Below are positions 8,336-31,032 of a DNA stretch of 31,032 nt, one piece after another. The stretch comes from a virus. Positions within the stretch are counted from its first letter, which is position 1; each line of letters opens with the position of its first letter. The stretch spans positions 1-31,032 of the IMG/VR virus record IMGVR_UViG_3300046000_005217; one strand, written 5' to 3'. The notes under the pieces were generated by a model that saw nothing but the letters and a program-made list of their open reading frames with translations, did not search any database and was not told where the DNA came from. The position numbers and the translations under genes were made by a program.

Positions 8336-10204
8336 TTATAATACTGTTTGGTCTTGTATTTTTTGATTTGTTTCTAATGCCGAAGATACATTACTGCTCA
8401 ACACAAATGCTTGAACTGCTCCAGTTTGTGATGGTCTATTATTCAAGAATGATGTATTCAAAGGATTGAATGATGGTGTTACACTTGTCATTGATGAACC
8501 ACCAAAAGAACCACCACCACCACCACCAGAAGCAGAACCACCACTACCAGTAGATGTTGATTGAAATTGTGTTTTAGCAATCTTTGCAACATTTGCTAAT
8601 CCCATTGCAAGTGATATACCAGCCTTCACATAGTTAGCACCAGTTATCGCATCTTGTGGAACTGATAATTGTGCATTCACCGCTTGATAAGTTGACATGA
8701 TTGCTTGTGCCATTGACAATGCTTTGTTTATCTGAAAAGATTTCCTTGCAGACTTTTCATTTCCTTTTGAGAATGCATCATTCAAAGCCATCAGAGCACC
8801 AATAGCATCAGAAGCCATTTGTAATTTCTGCTCTTGTAATTGCTTTTCTGTTGCTAACTTTTTTTCTGATGCTTCTTTATCTTTATCCGCTTGTTCTTTC
8901 CTATACTTTTCTTCTATATCAGCAAGGTCTTTTTTCTGCTTATCTGTAAGTTCTTTTTCTTTTTCTGCATTTCCATTTGCTAATTCAAATTGAGCATCAT
9001 AATCAGCTACCAAAGCATCAATTTCTTTTTGCTTTGCATCAGTAATTAGAAATTGACTTACTGCATAATAGTCTTCTTGCCTTTTTAATCTTGCAGCATT
9101 CAATGCAACTTCATCTGCTGCATTCATTGCTTCCAATTCAAGAATCAGATTGTGGATTTCTTCTTGACTTTTAAGGTCTGCTTCTCTTGCTGCTTTATCT
9201 TCTGCTGCTGTTTTATCTCTTTTGGCTTTTGATTTGGCTGCATCTTCTGTTCTAAACTTTTCTCTTAATTGTTTTTTCTTTTCTTCATATGCCCAATCCA
9301 GTTTATAAATATCTTCTTCATTAGCACCAGCAGCCTCAATCTTTCTGCGCTGGTCTGAATACCATTGAGCAATATTATCTTGTTCAATTTCTCTGGCATT
9401 CATTCCAGACTGAACTATGATTTTATCATATTCAAGATTTGCAGCATTCAATATTTGTATTTGCTTCAATGCTTCAATCTCATAATCTACTCTTTGCTGT
9501 GCATATTTTTTACGAAGGTCATCAAGGTCTTTTATTTGCTGTTCACTTAATCCGTATGCTTGTCTTTCCATCCACATTAAGTTATCAATCTTATCCTTCG
9601 TATCCTTCAAATCTTCCTTCATACTTTTACGCTTCAAGTCTGAAAGTTCCTTTTCATTACCTGCTGCTTCTTGCATACGCAATCTTTCAAGATTATGTCG
9701 CTGTTCGTTTGATGCATCTATAGATTTATTTGCAGCATCAACATCATTTCTCTGGTCATCAAGAATCATCTTGATTGCACCACCAATAGCTACAAGCGCA
9801 GCAACTAATAAGAATATCGGATTAGTAAGCAATGCTGTACCAAGTGCTTTCAATGCACCACCAAAATCTTTTATACCACTGATAGCACCTTTGAAACTTA
9901 CATTGCTTACTTGTCCAGCAAGACCTTTTACAGAACTTGTTACACCTTCAAAATCAAGGTTCATCAACCTTTCTTTCAATAAAGAACTGTTGTTTTTTAA
10001 TCTTTCAAATGCACTACCAGCATTCGCATTCATTGCTTCTGCTGCATCATTCACTTGGTCTTTCAATTCACCAGCCTTGTCAGCCAGTTCTTGGAAAGCA
10101 GCAGAATTTGGATTCATCGTAGCAAGTTCTTGCTTCAATTTTCGCAATTCTGCTGTCAACGAAATAACACTTCCCGTCGCTGTATTTGGACTTGATTCTG
10201 CCAT
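8336..10204 (-). CDS. Tail tape measure protein, 622 aa
   Basis: Long helical protein: N-terminal coiled coil (LTAELRKLKQELATMNP), a hydrophobic stretch around residues 118-147 (ALLTNPIFLLVAALVAIGGA), then about 300 residues of Lys/Glu/Ala coiled coil, a second hydrophobic helical part near 520-560 and a Gly/Ser-rich tail. This layout is that of tape measure proteins, which set tail length and enter the cell envelope during DNA injection. 622 residues would mean a tail of roughly 90 nm if the usual 1.5 angstrom per residue holds. The neighbours are tail genes upstream and the protease downstream. Confidence 0.85.
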   Translation of the reverse strand: MAESSPNTATGSVISLTAELRKLKQELATMNPNSAAFQELADKAGELKDQVNDAAEAMNANAGSAFERLKNNSSLLKERLMNLDFEGVTSSVKGLAGQVSNVSFKGAISGIKDFGGALKALGTALLTNPIFLLVAALVAIGGAIKMILDDQRNDVDAANKSIDASNEQRHNLERLRMQEAAGNEKELSDLKRKSMKEDLKDTKDKIDNLMWMERQAYGLSEQQIKDLDDLRKKYAQQRVDYEIEALKQIQILNAANLEYDKIIVQSGMNAREIEQDNIAQWYSDQRRKIEAAGANEEDIYKLDWAYEEKKKQLREKFRTEDAAKSKAKRDKTAAEDKAAREADLKSQEEIHNLILELEAMNAADEVALNAARLKRQEDYYAVSQFLITDAKQKEIDALVADYDAQFELANGNAEKEKELTDKQKKDLADIEEKYRKEQADKDKEASEKKLATEKQLQEQKLQMASDAIGALMALNDAFSKGNEKSARKSFQINKALSMAQAIMSTYQAVNAQLSVPQDAITGANYVKAGISLAMGLANVAKIAKTQFQSTSTGSGGSASGGGGGGSFGGSSMTSVTPSFNPLNTSFLNNRPSQTGAVQAFVLSSNVSSALETNQKIQDQTVL

Positions 10205-15076: not shown

Positions 15077-15361
15077 TTATTCTGTTGAATTCAATTCATC
15101 TGTAAGAACAGAAATATATTCTGTAAATTCTTCTGCTCTAATAACTGCCGCATTGAATTGAACATTAGTTAAATCAGTTACAACGTGATTAATAGCAGGT
15201 TCAATACCTCCACACATACGTTTAGCAGTAACTCTATTTACAATTATAGAATCATCTATTGTGATTTGATATTCCGCATCAACACAACTTTGATATGTAC
15301 AAAGATTTGATAGATTGCCATTTGGCAAATTGAATGTGCTAATTAATTTTATATATTTCAT
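15077..15361 (-). CDS. Hypothetical protein, 94 aa
   Basis: Starts 1 base into the overlap with the stop region of the fibre gene (15358) and ends 4 bases before the gp10-like gene. It contains three Cys (two in LCTYQSCVDAE) and a strand-rich middle (YQITIDDSIIVNRVTAKRM). No family recognised. By position it may be a small tail component or fibre-assembly factor, but that is inference only. Confidence 0.65.
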   Translation of the reverse strand: MKYIKLISTFNLPNGNLSNLCTYQSCVDAEYQITIDDSIIVNRVTAKRMCGGIEPAINHVVTDLTNVQFNAAVIRAEEFTEYISVLTDELNSTE

Positions 15362-18033
15362 ATTACACCACCTTTACAAGTTATTCCAACATAATCAACA
15401 GTTGCTTGAATTGAAGTGAGACCAGCTAATTTATTTACACCAATAACTGGTGCACCAGCATAGTTGTTTGATACTCTCACAAATCTACTTGAAACAGCAT
15501 AAGTCATTCCACCATCTGCTGAATAGAAGAAAACACAATCACCTAAATTATTTGGATGATATGTACCAAGCACAACAGCATTTGTTGTTACTGCTAAAGA
15601 AGTTGTTGTATCAGTAATTAATGTACCAGCAGTATTTGAAGAATAGTTTCTCCAAAATGAATTTGCAAAAGAAGCATACCATGTCATACTACCAGTTACA
15701 GAAAGACCAGTTGTATTAGAACTACTGCTTATGCCAACACCAAAAATAAAATCTTGTGCTGCTGTTGGTAACTGCTCTAATCTTATTCTTGATACAACAC
15801 AATATTTAGAAAATGAACCAGCACTTGTAAAAAATCCACTTCTTCCCATTGCCTTTAACGTTCCGCTATTATTAGCAACAGTACCTGTGGAGAATGTTAT
15901 TGTGCCTAATCCATTAAGGATTTGATTATCATTTCTAATAAAAGCACCAGTTCCACTTGCAATACCAATACCAGTTTCACCAAAGTAAGTAGTAGGAGAA
16001 GCAGCATTAGGAGCACCAAGCATATCATCAAATGCCATGTGACCATTATTTGAATCAGAAGAAAGAACACCCCAATCAGTTCCGTTGTGAAGTAATGTTA
16101 TCTGTTCACTTGGAAATAAGAAGTAAGCACTCCTTCCTTGAAATCTCATTCTGTTTGCAGCACTTGAATTGGTGCTGTTCTTTTCCAGAATCATTAAATT
16201 ATCTGATGAACTATTTAGAATTGTAACCATACGACCAGCATAACCACCAGCTATTCCACTGTAAACTTGAATCTTGTCTGTATAGTTTGCATTTATGCTA
16301 ATCACCTTTTCATCATCCCATCCAGTAGGTGCATAATTATCATATCGTGCAGATGTTTCCGTTAACGAAAGAACACCCCAATCTGCTGAAGGAATATTTT
16401 GATTTTCCCACAAGCCAGAAGTTGAATTGTAAATTAATCCTTGATTGTTTGTAGGACTTGAAACAGTTACACCATGCAATTCATTTAACTCATATCCATT
16501 CTGGATTGCAAGTACAATCCTTCCTAAAGTTGGATGTGCTCTTGCTATGTATCCAATGAAGACAGTGTGATTTGGTTCTGCTGGTGGTGTTGCTGTGAAT
16601 GCACCAGCAGTTGTTGCACTTAACCATACAGCATCACCAGCAGTAAATGCAGATGTATTCAAGTTGTGAAGTGTACCACTGACAGCAACTTGTCCATCAC
16701 TATTATTTGTGATATCAGCTACTACTATTCCAATTGTCTTGCTTGATGTTGCTTCTGTATTTGCTTGTGCAAGAACAGCATTTGGTCTGTTGCCAGTAGC
16801 ACCAGAAAGATAAACTACTTGTCCTTTTGTTAGTGTAACACCAGTTGAATTGCGAACAACTATCTGAATTGTTTCAGCACTATCAACTATACCATCATTG
16901 TCTGTATCGTATGTTGATTTGAACATGTCACCGAATCCAGACAAGTCTGGTTTGTTCAATATTTCTTTTGATCCACTTGTAGCATTCCAATCAGAATAGG
17001 TTTCAACTTCCCATACTGCAGCACTTTCAGTATTGTCAGTGCACACATAGATATCACCATTGTCTAATACCCATCTGGAAGTAACATAATATCCTTTTGT
17101 GATATCATCATTCGCTGTTGGTACAATATTAAATTTATAATTCACTTCACGAATGCTGTCACCGTTTCCATTCATCACATATTGACTTCCAGCTTCCCAT
17201 TTAAGTTCATAACCAACACCACAGATTTGAGCAATACCTTTGTAACCACCAGTATCAGCATCAATTGTTCCTTCACGAAGTCTTGAACCATTGTCCAATA
17301 ACACACCACCACCAGCACCAAATTTCACTTCTGCTGCATCTATTAATTCAATGTCATTTGTTGTAGTATTTCCAACATCAGTTACATCTTGAAGTGAACC
17401 ACCACCAGCACTTCCATTAAATACTATTTCAATTTTATTGCCATTAACAGTTGCTATGAAGTCATCACTAAAATCAAGAAATGAAGTGTATCCAACAAAG
17501 TCACCATCATTGTACACACCAATCTTTGTAAGTACACCACCACCTACTTCTGGATTGTCAGAAATATTTGGTGAATAGTCTGCTGGTATATCACATGCTG
17601 ACCAATCATATGGTAATCTTAAAGTGAAATCAAGTTGCACACCAGTTAACCGATGCATAAATTCTTCTGCAAATGGAAGTATGGATGCTCTTTGGTCTAC
17701 TATTTCTGCATCATCACCAAATAATATTTGCCCATTCTGAACTTCAGAAATCAGATGCAGTGCAATCCTATTCATGTCACTGATGATTTCCTTCTGGTGC
17801 TCTGTCTTATCTTCCTTATCTCTTCCAATGTCAGCAAATCTAACAGACAATTGATAATCCAGAATCCCTTCACTTGGTGATATCTCATTGCATATTACAT
17901 GCATCAATGGATACATTGGTTCTTTATCCAAATCTGCTGCATCAATTTGTCCATGATAGAATTTCTTTAATATGAAATGCCCATCTGCAAATTGTCTCAA
18001 TCTTTCAATGACTGTTCTATAGCTGTTTAACAT
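15358..18033 (-). CDS. Tail terminator-like domain fused to tail fibre, 891 aa
   Basis: Residues 1-155 form a compact alpha/beta domain (RTVIERLRQFADGHFILKKF, LQLSVRFADIGRDKEDK-like stretch, EEFMHRLTGVQLDFTLRLPY, DWSACDIPADY) that resembles tail terminator / tail completion proteins. The remaining 730 residues are Gly-, Ser-, Thr- and Asn-rich fibre sequence. Around 370-385 there is a calcium-loop-like DTDNDGIVDSAE, and after it a repeat module with GQVVYLSGATGNRPNAV and TAGDAVWLSATTAGAF seen in phage fibres. The C-terminus would bind the receptor. One protein would thus combine a neck or tail-end ring with an adhesin, or the fibre domain may be displayed at the neck. It starts inside the frameshifted chaperone gene. 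Confidence 0.75.
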   Translation of the reverse strand: MLNSYRTVIERLRQFADGHFILKKFYHGQIDAADLDKEPMYPLMHVICNEISPSEGILDYQLSVRFADIGRDKEDKTEHQKEIISDMNRIALHLISEVQNGQILFGDDAEIVDQRASILPFAEEFMHRLTGVQLDFTLRLPYDWSACDIPADYSPNISDNPEVGGGVLTKIGVYNDGDFVGYTSFLDFSDDFIATVNGNKIEIVFNGSAGGGSLQDVTDVGNTTTNDIELIDAAEVKFGAGGGVLLDNGSRLREGTIDADTGGYKGIAQICGVGYELKWEAGSQYVMNGNGDSIREVNYKFNIVPTANDDITKGYYVTSRWVLDNGDIYVCTDNTESAAVWEVETYSDWNATSGSKEILNKPDLSGFGDMFKSTYDTDNDGIVDSAETIQIVVRNSTGVTLTKGQVVYLSGATGNRPNAVLAQANTEATSSKTIGIVVADITNNSDGQVAVSGTLHNLNTSAFTAGDAVWLSATTAGAFTATPPAEPNHTVFIGYIARAHPTLGRIVLAIQNGYELNELHGVTVSSPTNNQGLIYNSTSGLWENQNIPSADWGVLSLTETSARYDNYAPTGWDDEKVISINANYTDKIQVYSGIAGGYAGRMVTILNSSSDNLMILEKNSTNSSAANRMRFQGRSAYFLFPSEQITLLHNGTDWGVLSSDSNNGHMAFDDMLGAPNAASPTTYFGETGIGIASGTGAFIRNDNQILNGLGTITFSTGTVANNSGTLKAMGRSGFFTSAGSFSKYCVVSRIRLEQLPTAAQDFIFGVGISSSSNTTGLSVTGSMTWYASFANSFWRNYSSNTAGTLITDTTTSLAVTTNAVVLGTYHPNNLGDCVFFYSADGGMTYAVSSRFVRVSNNYAGAPVIGVNKLAGLTSIQATVDYVGITCKGGVI

Positions 18034-20439: not shown

Positions 20440-20853
20440 CTATCCTACATCTGACTTCAATTTTGTTAGCAAATCTTTCACGCATGGTGCACAATTGGAG
20501 ACTGGTAACTTATGACCAGTAGCAATGAATGCAAGGTCATATAACTTCACCAAATCTTCTCTACTGATATAATCAGTGTTGATGGTTTTTAAGAATGCTC
20601 TTGCTTCTTCTTTTTGTTCTGCTGTCATCTCACCTACAGCAGACCATTTACCAACTGAACATTCCACATTTCTGAATGCAGTTTTCACAGTCATGTTGCA
20701 GCCACATAACTTGTGTTTCTTTTTCTTGAAAGTTACAGTGCCACCGATTACTGGTGTACCACACCATGTTCCTTTGGCGAACTTTTGAGCAAACTTACAA
20801 TCCTTGCAAATTGCTCTTCTCTCTTCAATGATTTCTTTCGATGCGAACCACAT
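20440..20853 (-). CDS. Cys-rich, probably zinc-binding protein, 137 aa
   Basis: The ATG at 20853 (MWFASKEIIEERRAICKDC) has an A-rich leader (AAATCAAAAAAT) and overlaps the sigma-like gene by 29 bases; the longer frame would need a TTG start and a 140-base overlap. The first 65 residues carry six Cys: C16-x2-C19, C31 in TWCGTPV, C50-x-C52 in HKLCGCNM and C64. This arrangement suits one or two zinc sites. The rest is helical, with a CxxC near the end (SNCAPCVKDLL). Such proteins are common in Bacteroidota phages; function unknown. Confidence 0.75.
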   Translation of the reverse strand: MWFASKEIIEERRAICKDCKFAQKFAKGTWCGTPVIGGTVTFKKKKHKLCGCNMTVKTAFRNVECSVGKWSAVGEMTAEQKEEARAFLKTINTDYISREDLVKLYDLAFIATGHKLPVSNCAPCVKDLLTKLKSDVG

Positions 20854-21322
20854 ATTTTTTGATTTTAGATTTGATATGATTGATGTATTTATACATGTAC
20901 TCAACATTGACTCCAGCAATTCCGCTCCAATATTCATAGCTGAAATCTGGCTGCAAGTATTCTTCAAATATTATTCTCTCGTGCTCTGGAAGTCTACTGA
21001 TGGCAATATCAACATTCTCTATTCTGATTCTATCATGAAATGTTACATGCTGAATTGTTTCAATTTTCTCAACATTCAGTTCAGTAGTGTTCAATTTAAA
21101 TATCTGTCTGAAGGATGATGTCTTTGAGTACCATCCCAGATACATTGCCCTATGTATGTATGAATGAAGTTCTGATTCCGTCATGCTATCCATCTTATCC
21201 TTTGAATGAACCATGCAGTATTCAATTGTATGGTGCAGTAGTTCATCAGCATCAAATTTGTTTCTGGTGATTTTAAGAGCACACTGGTGCAATGATGAAT
21301 AGATGATGGTTATATTACTCAT
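20825..21322 (-). CDS. Sigma-70-family-like transcription factor, 165 aa
   Basis: The N-terminal part (HQCALKITRNKFDADELLHH at about 12-31, then TIEYCMVHSKDKM) resembles sigma region 2, and residues 108-160 (LPEHERIIFEEYLQPDFSYE followed by a helix-turn-helix GIAGVNVEYMYKYINHIKSK) resemble sigma region 4. The length fits a reduced ECF-type sigma factor. If active it would direct the host RNA polymerase to phage promoters, most likely the morphogenesis genes. The gene has its own promoter and a repeat-rich leader. The match is by eye; region 2 is weaker than region 4. Confidence 0.65.
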   Translation of the reverse strand: MSNITIIYSSLHQCALKITRNKFDADELLHHTIEYCMVHSKDKMDSMTESELHSYIHRAMYLGWYSKTSSFRQIFKLNTTELNVEKIETIQHVTFHDRIRIENVDIAISRLPEHERIIFEEYLQPDFSYEYWSGIAGVNVEYMYKYINHIKSKIKKYVVRIERNH

Positions 21323-21425: not shown

Positions 21426-21457
21426 CAAAGTTAGTCATTCATGTACCATTGTATCAA
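21426..21457 (-). promoter_or_regulatory. Promoter of the sigma-like gene
   Basis: On the minus strand TTG (21457-21455), 21 bases, then TAACTTTG (21433-21426), an exact TAnnTTTG. It overlaps the end of the nuclease gene and gives a leader of about 100 bases. Confidence 0.65.
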
Positions 21458-21769
21458 TGATAATGCTTCTGGTGTTCCTTTGCATACCTTCGCATAATAA
21501 CCATTATCACATAACTTCTTTATCCATTCCTTCTGTGATGCTTGTGCTGTACCTTTAGTTGTCTTCAGTTCAATTGCTAATCCATGATAACCTTTCCTTG
21601 ATTCATAGATGAACAAGTCTGGGAATCCTTTTACATATCCAGTGCGCTTCATTTTTATTGCTTGTTTGATGCTGGTTCTTACACCACCAGCAGATGCACA
21701 ATAAAGAGCATTTGGATATTGGTATTTGAGATAGTTAACTACTGCTATTTGTACAAATTCTTCTGTCAT
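21431..21769 (-). CDS. VRR-NUC domain nuclease, 112 aa
   Basis: Small stand-alone nuclease of the VRR-NUC (PD-(D/E)xK) class: KGFPDLFIYESRKGYHGLAI with D51, then E67-x-K69 in IELKTTKG, and Q79 in ASQKEWIKKLCDNGYYAKV. These are the active-site residues of the fold. The length equals that of other phage stand-alone members. It would act on branched or structured DNA during replication, recombination or packaging. It is the first gene of the leftward block with a very short mRNA leader. Confidence 0.88.
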   Translation of the reverse strand: MTEEFVQIAVVNYLKYQYPNALYCASAGGVRTSIKQAIKMKRTGYVKGFPDLFIYESRKGYHGLAIELKTTKGTAQASQKEWIKKLCDNGYYAKVCKGTPEALSLIQWYMND

Positions 21770-25433: not shown

Positions 25434-25838
25434 ATGAACAAAGCGGAACAATTCTTCTACAAGAATGCAACACCAACAACAGATGATTTGATTTCACCAG
25501 ATGAATGCATAAGACTTCTGGAATTGTATGTCAAAGAAAAGACAGTATTCACACCACCAGCAAAAGAAGAAGTCATGCAGTATTTCAAATCAAAAACTGA
25601 TGGATGTGATGATGATGCAGAAAGGTTTGCATCTAAGTTCATAGCACACTATGAATTAAAGGACTGGAAGTATGGAAACAAGAAGATGAAGGATTGGAAA
25701 AGAGCAGCAGTTGCAGCATGGGATATGAGCAAATTTGTAACTATTAAATCATTAAGCAATGGACAATTTGGAAAAGGTACATCCAGACAAGGACTTGAAA
25801 ACATCCTTGCACAATTTGACAAAGGTCAGCAATGTTGA
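25434..25838 (+). CDS. Replisome organiser-like C-terminal domain protein, 134 aa
   Basis: The segment PPAKEEVMQYFKSKTDGC then AERFASKFIAHYELKDWKYG and NKKMKDWKRAAVAAW is the pattern at the end of many phage replication proteins (P-x-EEV, A-x-x-F, YE, W-x-x-G, MKDWK-x-A-V-x-x-W). Here it stands almost alone, without the winged-helix origin-binding part. Together with the DnaA-like gene just before it and the two genes after it, it likely recruits host helicase or DNA. The assignment is by motif. Confidence 0.7.
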   Translation: MNKAEQFFYKNATPTTDDLISPDECIRLLELYVKEKTVFTPPAKEEVMQYFKSKTDGCDDDAERFASKFIAHYELKDWKYGNKKMKDWKRAAVAAWDMSKFVTIKSLSNGQFGKGTSRQGLENILAQFDKGQQC

Positions 25839-26556
25839 TTACAGAAAAATAATTGCAGCAAAGGAATCATCTGAACTGATTACTCTTGTATCTGGAAAGG
25901 AATTTGCGTATGTATTCTTTGCACAACTGGTATTTCATGGTATTCCACAGCCAGAAATGATTGAACCAATTCAACAGATGCATTCTTTTATTTCAGATAA
26001 TTTTAGCTGGTGCACAGTTGCAGACTTCAAACTTGCATTTGAATTTAATGCTGCTGGAAAATTATCAAACAAACTAAATGCTTTCAAATCATTTGATGCA
26101 ACATATGTTGGTAGTGTACTTGATGAATATTATAAGATGCGAATGGAAGCAATGAAGAAATGGAATGATGTAAATGTTAACTACATTGAACCATCACATC
26201 AACTTGCATCATCAACAACTTATGATGAAAAGCAAATGTTCATGACATCATTAAATACAGACATTGAAAAAGCAAGAAAAGGAAATTACATGACTGCATC
26301 ATTGCTTGGTTCTGTTTGGTTTGACAATCTGTACAAACATCAATTGGTGACAGATGACTTCTGGACTGATTTAGAATGGTCAAATTTCAAATCAATTGCA
26401 AAAAAGAACATTGTGCATGAGAAGGAATTGACAAGGACTAAATACGCAAAGTTAAAAGACAATCCCAGATTGTATGAATTGCACCAGCAAGATGTGAAAA
26501 GTGAAATAAAAAAGATAATGTATGTTGACTATCTAAAAAAACAAATAACAAAATGA
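25759..26556 (+). CDS. Conserved-looking hypothetical protein in the replication cluster, 265 aa
   Basis: The only ATG that covers the start of the frame, 25759, overlaps the previous gene by 80 bases; TTG codons at 25807 and 25816 are alternatives. The protein is helical, with SGKEFAYVFFAQLVFHGIPQ, FKLAFEFNAAGKLSNKLNAF and VLDEYYKMRMEAMKKWNDVN, and a basic end. No NTPase motif is visible. Position between replisome organiser-like and winged-helix proteins suggests a replication role; the function is not identified. Confidence 0.65.
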   Translation: MDNLEKVHPDKDLKTSLHNLTKVSNVDYRKIIAAKESSELITLVSGKEFAYVFFAQLVFHGIPQPEMIEPIQQMHSFISDNFSWCTVADFKLAFEFNAAGKLSNKLNAFKSFDATYVGSVLDEYYKMRMEAMKKWNDVNVNYIEPSHQLASSTTYDEKQMFMTSLNTDIEKARKGNYMTASLLGSVWFDNLYKHQLVTDDFWTDLEWSNFKSIAKKNIVHEKELTRTKYAKLKDNPRLYELHQQDVKSEIKKIMYVDYLKKQITK

Positions 26557-26950: not shown

Positions 26951-27940
26951 ATGAATGTATTATCACTGTTTGATGGAATGTCCTGTGGACAACAAGCTCT
27001 TAAAAGAATAGATATTAAAGTAGATAAATACTATGCTTCTGAAATTGATAAGTATGCAATTTCGATTACACAAAAGAACTATCCGAGCACGATTCAATTA
27101 GAATCCGTTGTCAATGTTGATGTTACCAAATTAGAACGAATTGATTTATTGATTGGCGGTTCACCTTGTCAAAGTTTTTCTTTTGCCGGTAAGCGAAAAG
27201 GAATGTCCACAAAGGATGAAATTGAGATATTGACATTAAATCAATACCTTGAATTGAAAGAACAGAACTTTGAATTTGAAGGTCAGTCTTATTTATTTTG
27301 GGAATATATGAGAATACTAATTGATATCCGAAAAACTAATCCAGATGTAAAGTTTCTTCTTGAAAATGTAATGATGGGCGAAAAGTGGGAAAAGGTTTTA
27401 AGTAAAGCAATAGGTGTTAATGCAATTGAGTTTAATAGTTCATTGGTCTCAGCCCAGAATCGCAGACGATTATACTGGACAAATATTGGAATGAAACCAG
27501 CAGGACTTTTTGGAGATTTGGAGAGTATTATTGTTCAGCCAAAGGACAAAGGCATTTTGTTAAAAGACATTCTTCAAAGTGAAGTTGATGAAAAGTATTT
27601 TTTGAGTGAGAAAATGATTGCTTCGTTTCAAAAACACGATGGAAAGACTTATTGTCTTGATACAGGCAACACTAATGCGGTTGAGATTGTTGCGATGGAC
27701 TTTAGAACTGATGAAGGATTAAGGATTAGGAACGAAGGCAAAACACCTACTTTGTGCATAAATACACCAGTATATACTAATACTCCTCGCATTCGCAGAT
27801 TAACACCTACAGAATGTGAAAGGTTACAAACCGTAAAAGACGGATATACTGATGGTGTGAGCGACACCCAACGATATCGAATGTTGGGAAATGGATGGAC
27901 AGTTGATGTAATAGCACATATATTAAATTATTTAAAGTAA
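26951..27940 (+). CDS. DNA (cytosine-5)-methyltransferase, 329 aa
   Basis: All key motifs are present: motif I LSLFDGMSCG at 4-13, motif IV GGSPCQSFSFAG with the catalytic C73, motif VI ENV at 138-140, motif VIII QNRRRLYWTNIG at 169-180, and motif X MLGNGWTVDVI near the end. It transfers methyl from S-adenosylmethionine to C5 of cytosine, protecting phage DNA from restriction. The target site cannot be read from sequence. No restriction enzyme is next to it. The gene has about 25 CpG in 990 bases against about 13 in the next 1.3 kb, so it was probably acquired from a different source. Leader ATCAACAACAACA. Confidence 0.95.
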   Translation: MNVLSLFDGMSCGQQALKRIDIKVDKYYASEIDKYAISITQKNYPSTIQLESVVNVDVTKLERIDLLIGGSPCQSFSFAGKRKGMSTKDEIEILTLNQYLELKEQNFEFEGQSYLFWEYMRILIDIRKTNPDVKFLLENVMMGEKWEKVLSKAIGVNAIEFNSSLVSAQNRRRLYWTNIGMKPAGLFGDLESIIVQPKDKGILLKDILQSEVDEKYFLSEKMIASFQKHDGKTYCLDTGNTNAVEIVAMDFRTDEGLRIRNEGKTPTLCINTPVYTNTPRIRRLTPTECERLQTVKDGYTDGVSDTQRYRMLGNGWTVDVIAHILNYLK

Positions 27941-29238
27941 TGTACCTTCCTAATTATACTGCCAGACAAGAAGAAGCATTGACTGCTTTATCACCATCAT
28001 CCAGCATTGAAACAGTGTTGTATGGTGGTGCTGCTGGTGGTGGAAAAACATTTCTTGGATGCTCATGGCAAATCAACAGAAGACTGAAATATCCTAACAC
28101 GAGAGGAGTAATTGCCAGAGCAGAATTGAAAAGATTACGACAGTCTACAATGGCAACATTCTGGACAATTGCAAACAACATGAAATTGGTAAATGGCATT
28201 CATTACACTTACAACATGTCTGACCATATTATCAAGTTCTATAATGGTTCTGAAATAATGCTTCTGGATTTAGCATACAAGCCATCAGATAGTGAGTATA
28301 CAAGGCTTGGTTCGATTGAGATTACAGACTATTTTGTAGACGAAGCAGCAGAAGTAAGCAAGAAAGCAGTTGACATCCTTGATTCTCGTGTTAGGTATAA
28401 TCTTATTCATAATGTTCCAAAAGGATTACTATCATGTAATCCAACAAAAGGATGGTTATATTCAGATTATTTTGATGCTGACAGAAAGAATACTATTCGT
28501 GAAGATAGATTCTTTATAAAAGCACTGCCATCAGATAACGAATATCTTCCAGAAGCATATCTTGAAAAGCTATCCAGACTTCCAGAAAGAGATAGAAAGA
28601 GATTGAAAGAAGGTGATTGGGATTATGATGAAAGCAATGATAGATTATTCTACTATGATGATTTGCTTCGCTGTTTTAGAAATGAAATTATTGGCAACAC
28701 CATGCACATCACTGCTGACATTGCTGGACTTGGTGATGATAAAACAATCATTGGATTATGGAATGGATGGTCTCTTGTGGATATCTTCATGCTGGAAAAA
28801 AAGTATCCAAATGAAGTAGCTGATTTCATTCGTAATTTAGCAAAAGAAAGAAATGTTCGTCTGGCTAATATTGTGGTGGATGCTGATGGATTAGGAATTG
28901 GTGTTGTTGGAATACTGAAATGTAGAGCATTCAATAATGGTGGTAGAGCAGTTGACAATGAAACTTACATGAACTTGAAAGCAGAATGCTATTTCAAACT
29001 TGGTGAAAAAATAAATGCAAATGGAATCACAATCTGCACAAGCAAGTTCAAAGAAGAAATAATTAAACAGATGGAAGTTGTTCGTGAATCGAATGTAGAT
29101 AAAGAAAAGAAAAAACAAGTCACCAGCAAAGATGAAATCAAAAAGCAACATGGTTATTCACCAGACTTTGCTGATATGATAATGATGCGTATGTACTTTG
29201 ACTTGTATCCTAACTATGGAAAGTATGCTATTAGATAA
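27940..29238 (+). CDS. Terminase large subunit, 432 aa
   Basis: ATPase part: Walker A GGAAGGGKT at 29-37 and Walker B DYFVDEAAE at about 130-138, with SCNPTKGWLY as the coupling motif. Nuclease part (RNase H fold): D260 in TADIAGLGDD, D314/D316 in IVVDADGLG, and D409/D412 in SPDFADMIMM. It cuts the concatemer and pumps DNA through the portal. The start overlaps the methyltransferase stop by one base. It lies on the opposite strand from the small subunit and 9 kb away, which is unusual. Confidence 0.93.
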   Translation: MYLPNYTARQEEALTALSPSSSIETVLYGGAAGGGKTFLGCSWQINRRLKYPNTRGVIARAELKRLRQSTMATFWTIANNMKLVNGIHYTYNMSDHIIKFYNGSEIMLLDLAYKPSDSEYTRLGSIEITDYFVDEAAEVSKKAVDILDSRVRYNLIHNVPKGLLSCNPTKGWLYSDYFDADRKNTIREDRFFIKALPSDNEYLPEAYLEKLSRLPERDRKRLKEGDWDYDESNDRLFYYDDLLRCFRNEIIGNTMHITADIAGLGDDKTIIGLWNGWSLVDIFMLEKKYPNEVADFIRNLAKERNVRLANIVVDADGLGIGVVGILKCRAFNNGGRAVDNETYMNLKAECYFKLGEKINANGITICTSKFKEEIIKQMEVVRESNVDKEKKKQVTSKDEIKKQHGYSPDFADMIMMRMYFDLYPNYGKYAIR

Positions 29239-30844: not shown

Positions 30845-31032
30845 TGACCAATCATTCAATCTATGTTATAACTCACTTGAATACTGGTGGATGTATGCAA
30901 AGATTCAAGATTCAATAATCATCCACCAGAAACAAATGATTGAAAAATACATTGTTGTTACTGGTGTACAGTCACAGAAAGAAGAAGATTTGGAAAGCAT
31001 GTATAACTTGAAGAAGCAAGTAGAGATAGCCT
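30732..31032 (+). CDS. Spanin-like membrane protein, 5' part (continues at base 1)
   Basis: ATG at 30732, inside the previous gene in another frame, starts MKRLFLLLLIAAMPNFVSA, a good signal peptide with likely cleavage after VSA. The frame runs through ...SLEYWWMYAKIQDSIII into the terminal repeat and ends at 251 after rejoining, giving 140 residues. There is no lipobox Cys at the signal's end, so it is not a classical Rz1 or a clear unimolecular spanin. The C-terminal membrane segment is preceded by RKKRWRKR, which conflicts with a periplasmic middle; a shorter form from the ATG at 30891 would instead be a tail-anchored protein. Confidence 0.65.
   Translation, partial: MKRLFLLLLIAAMPNFVSAINLNLRADTSKVDTLQLNNDQSFNLCYNSLEYWWMYAKIQDSIIIHQKQMIEKYIVVTGVQSQKEEDLESMYNLKKQVEIA
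30904..31029. repeat. Terminal direct repeat, right copy
   Basis: Identical to bases 1-126. Removing one copy with the three odd end bases leaves about 30,903 unique bases as the likely circular length. Confidence 0.95.

Follow-up and report, generated by a model that had tools for sequence, protein, structure and literature searches.

Near-complete loss of GATC and of the asymmetric word CCTG/CAGG from a tailed-phage genome of Bacteroidota type

Why does a phage genome of about 31 kb contain the tetranucleotide GATC only once? The window analysed here comes from IMG/VR virus record IMGVR_UViG_3300046000_005217 (positions 1 to 31,032), and a first-pass annotation, made by eye, had placed its only GATC at 16970-16973, in a fibre gene, against roughly 100 sites predicted by chance. 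A program count over the whole window finds the same single site in the same place, where it spans the codons GGA TCA:

16970-16973, no strand: sole GATC of the window, in the fibre-type gene
15358-18033, minus strand: fibre-type gene with the residual GATC, a mosaic between relatives

Base composition predicts 97.8 sites, close to the annotation's estimate. The Markov count that the annotation had proposed as a check is far from its expectation, with 1 site against 138.0 under a second-order model (z -14.6, the lowest among all 256 tetranucleotides). Synonymous-codon shuffling, in which every protein and the codon usage are preserved, still gives 65.7 +/- 6.9 sites (z -9.4), and all three codon phases are depleted (observed 0/1/0, expected 26/17/22). 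There is good support for selection acting on this word at the level of double-stranded DNA.

Matches of the terminase, the portal and other proteins are to tailed phages of Bacteroidota:

27940-29238, plus strand: terminase large subunit, used for phage placement
3044-5035, minus strand: portal protein, used for phage placement

The terminase shares 41% amino acid identity with that of Flavobacterium phage 11b and the portal about 32% identity with that of Nonlabens phage P12024S, and there is a 53% terminase match on a short contig in a Flavobacteriaceae metagenome bin. Judging from these relatives, our guess is that the putative host belongs to the Flavobacteriaceae. The two ends of the window (about 1-125 and 30905-31032) repeat each other over about 125 bp, the final few bases differing. 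Since contig L002, from a sister phage, spans the end-to-end junction, this repeat indicates that the window is a near-complete, circularly overlapping or circularly permuted genome of ~30.9 kb. A predicted Cas12i at 25759-26556 (PADLOC, E 2e-5) matches one stretch of a 949-position model and was taken as a chance hit.

The first-pass annotation was right about GATC, but it missed several other depleted words. Across the whole window CTAG is absent (46 expected), as is GGCC (6 expected), AGCT is reduced to 34 occurrences against 104, and CCTG and CAGG together number 6 against 87; under codon shuffling, CCTC/GAGG is found 13 times against an expected 72. CCTG/CAGG is non-palindromic, and each of its one-base extensions, on either side, is depleted, so the four-base word itself is the avoided unit. 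Three of the window's six residual sites fall within a methyltransferase gene:

9660-9663, plus strand: residual CCTG
15196-15199, plus strand: residual CAGG
15884-15887, plus strand: residual CCTG
26982-26985, plus strand: residual CCTG, methyltransferase gene
27501-27504, plus strand: residual CAGG, methyltransferase gene
27663-27666, plus strand: residual CAGG, methyltransferase gene
26951-27940, plus strand: C5-cytosine DNA methyltransferase (PF00145)
27615-27791, plus strand: variable, target-recognition stretch of the methyltransferase, at which the DNA alignment with the sister phages ends

The losses are maintained in sister phages that are ~92% identical to the window. Outside the methyltransferase gene, the 18.2 kb compared contain 1477 substitutions; placing these randomly, with coding constraint ignored, gives an expectation of ~22 GATC, ~19 CTAG, ~25 CCTG and ~23 CCTC in the sisters, and the observed numbers are 0, 0, 1 and 0. 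Coding constraint lowers some ordinary words as well, and these can reach a similar z in this substitution test (TTAA, 84 against 125), yet it does not bring them near zero; the only words with no copies or almost none are GATC, CTAG, CCTG and CCTC. Because the sisters show no GATC where ~22 would be expected, selection against this word is still acting.

At greater distance the set of avoided words changes. G350 is a syntenic relative of 30.5 kb with ~70% nucleotide identity, most of whose genes are common to the window and whose proteins are up to 85% identical to the window's. As a whole it has CATG at 1 observed against 108 expected, GGCC at 1/31, CCGG at 7/39, GATC at 25/122 and CCTG at 127/114. 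Over the 21 kb that can be aligned, the window and G350 contain, respectively, 0 and 17 GATC, 3 and 92 CCTG, and 82 and 0 CATG. The partial relatives L252-L254 and L256-L259 follow the G350 pattern of CATG/GGCC avoidance. As G350 and these partial relatives avoid CATG and GGCC, with GATC avoided only in part by G350, and the window avoids GATC, the avoided set has been replaced within one lineage, as expected if the restriction enzymes of the hosts change.

Other relatives have their own sets, among them L006, of 17 kb (GATC 0/101, CTAG 0/46, AGCT 0/49), L019 (GTAC 0/29) and L116 (CATG 0/66). GATC is below 0.1 of its expectation in 17 of the 107 viral relatives with enough GATC expectation (median ratio 0.45); at least one palindrome is below 0.1 in 69 of 108, and an asymmetric word in only 6. 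We also note the asymmetric 4-mers nearly eliminated from L157, L127, L162, L138 and L154 (GACC 0/25, CGTC 1/33 and 1/25, CCGC 0/17, CCAG 2/32).

The loss of CCTG/CAGG is about as strong as that of GATC and more unusual, and it is the part that could yield something new. Kept in the sisters and absent from G350, it may reflect a Bacteroidota defence that recognises a four-base non-palindromic word, an explanation that we offer tentatively and that could well be wrong. None of the restriction enzymes described to date is known to us to recognise this site, and a literature search for such an enzyme gave nothing relevant. In the parts of the Lake Biwa metaepigenome report available to us, the text has no CAGG or CCTG motif, and the sole Bacteroidetes genome is not linked to GATC. 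If the explanation is true, CCTG/CAGG predicts a specificity to seek in host methylomes.

The segment around the window's residual GATC (...SDWNATSGSKEILNKPDLS...) is absent or different in relatives, and its context has no exact match in other viral contigs. The single GATC of the sister L159 and its four CCTG/CAGG sites all lie within the methyltransferase gene (L159 9988-11476). The corresponding gene of the sister L004 (925-2385) likewise holds that contig's only GATC and all of its CCTG/CAGG. This confinement in both sisters points to recent import of the gene, and the residual GATCs of the window and its sisters lie in DNA that has apparently been swapped recently, namely the fibre module and the methyltransferase gene. 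Sites would re-enter chiefly with such newly imported DNA and would then be lost again. Across 15 GATC-depleted loci, methyltransferase genes contain 4 of the 18 residual GATC sites in 7% of the DNA, an excess that is only suggestive.

Might the phage methyltransferase itself protect GATC? Its catalytic motifs (FDGMSCG, PCQ, ENV, QNRRR, GNG) are intact. With 107 residues between motifs, its target-recognition region is shorter than that of every other family member in which one could be delimited (34 in all; 129-303 residues in the rest), and it has only two short target-recognition segments; the sister phages carry a 265-residue version. Relatives of the enzyme in many viral contigs have a common core and a target-recognition part made of exchangeable segments, and in G350 the gene is at another location and is inverted with respect to the genes around it. 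None of 80 family members, the window's included, was found to contain the target-recognition segment of the flavobacterial Sau3AI-type methyltransferase, and the window enzyme therefore probably does not protect GATC. The methyltransferase, with a target-recognition part swapped among relatives, would form a second layer that apparently does not cover this word. An association between target-recognition segments and avoided words across 71 loci was unconvincing, the best uncorrected p of 0.004 among roughly 70 tests not surviving multiple testing.

SPbeta-type Bacillus phages have multispecific C5 methyltransferases, in which a C5 catalytic core is combined with exchangeable tandem target-recognition segments. 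The family described here is similar in both respects, the exchangeable segments being clear in the relatives of the window enzyme, and differs in the unusually short variable region of the window copy.

With regard to candidate hosts, whose restriction systems the first-pass annotation had suggested listing, GATC-cutting systems of the DpnII and Sau3AI types do exist in Flavobacteriaceae. The DpnII family is over the cut-off in 6 of 300 genomes (~2%) and the MutH/Sau3AI family is present in 12 others (~4%), together about 6% of the species sampled; a second sample, of 250 genomes from a single flavobacterial genus, has 6 with DpnII over the cut-off. In each of two DpnII loci that were checked, the operon also contains a dam-like methyltransferase and one further adenine methyltransferase. 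One checked MutH-family protein matches the solved structure of Sau3AI along some 400 residues (E 2e-74) and has a C5 methyltransferase next to it. Where related terminases are carried, the same listing came out differently: DpnII and MutH/Sau3AI-family genes are in none of 50 such bacterial genomes, 18 of which have GATC-depleted terminase loci.

We consider it very probable that GATC has been purged by purifying selection caused by cleavage of unmethylated GATC within the host range, most likely by an enzyme of the DpnII/MboI or Sau3AI kind. Orthodox Type II enzymes in part of the host range would cut any GATC that enters without methylation, and with essentially no sites the injected DNA would escape cutting. 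The annotation had attributed the loss to selection by such enzymes or by another GATC-directed defence: the selection is upheld by the depletion in all phases, its maintenance in sisters and its restriction to particular lineages, and a host enzyme that cuts GATC is the probable agent. Another GATC-directed defence, either phosphorothioation-based (Dnd) or a DpnI-like enzyme acting on m6A-GATC gained in other hosts, has a small but real chance of being the driver. It would suit the absence of DpnII/Sau3AI-family genes from the 50 genomes with related terminases. Most F. psychrophilum carry an orphan GATC methyltransferase that modifies cytosine and has no cognate enzyme (PMC11837570), and phage restriction based on Dnd phosphorothioation is documented (PMC10470545). 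Against it, conventional GATC systems are present in Flavobacteriaceae, and such an alternative system in a host is hypothetical.

The remaining explanations dispense with a host defence. Cytosine methylation of GATC followed by deamination to GATT/AATC, with no selection, would account for the over-representation of these words (548 against 436) and for the AATC or GATT found in the window at 8 of 17 GATC sites of G350. GATG/CATC, which arises by transversion, exceeds its expectation just as much (1.26-fold), however; CTAG and CCTG are also lost, CCTG mostly standing opposite CCAG (37 of about 70), the phage methyltransferase has no Sau3AI-type target domain, and the loss is too complete across the sister divergence, all of which makes such a mutation bias very unlikely. 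We give an equally slight chance to a phage-encoded GATC nuclease that would digest the DNA of the host while the phage keeps its own genome site-free. Candidates for it would be several small genes without assigned function and the following:

21431-21769: VRR-NUC protein

This gene and most of the others are common to G350, which retains 25 GATC, no restriction-nuclease family was found among the proteins scanned, and the same GATC loss occurs in distant relatives with different gene content. (A small protein, 20825-21322, is encoded beside the VRR-NUC protein, perhaps the same pair as in P12024S, where a VRR-NUC gene is followed by a sigma-70-like gene.) As for a chance product of base composition, through codon usage or a low GC content, codon usage alone does cut the expectation from 138 to 66, but the deficit that remains under the codon null, in every phase, refutes it, and a relative as close in protein sequence as G350 keeps its 25 sites; it has almost no chance of being correct.

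The window's GATC loss is in itself a clear but ordinary case of documented restriction-site avoidance, probably through purifying selection by GATC-cleaving hosts. Avoided words can be read as a history of the restriction enzymes that a phage lineage has met, and their turnover at ~70% identity might help to pair uncultured phages with hosts. The nearest isolated relatives found, Flavobacterium phage 11b and Nonlabens phage P12024S, resemble the window in avoiding palindromes; unlike it, they avoid GGCC (0/22 and 0/35) and CCGG, and not GATC (43/78 and 82/101). In the survey of Type II avoidance by phages (Rusinov et al., 2018; PMC6286503), GATC is among the most consistently avoided sites, as in the window, and is under-represented in 46 of 46 phages with hosts encoding a GATC enzyme; about one viral genome in ten has had sites eliminated, and avoidance is almost wholly confined to orthodox Type II sites. 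In the window, as in those cases, a 4-bp palindrome known as a Type II site has been almost completely lost. It differs from them in that here we infer the host and the enzyme, and in that an asymmetric word, CCTG/CAGG, has been eliminated about as strongly as the palindrome.
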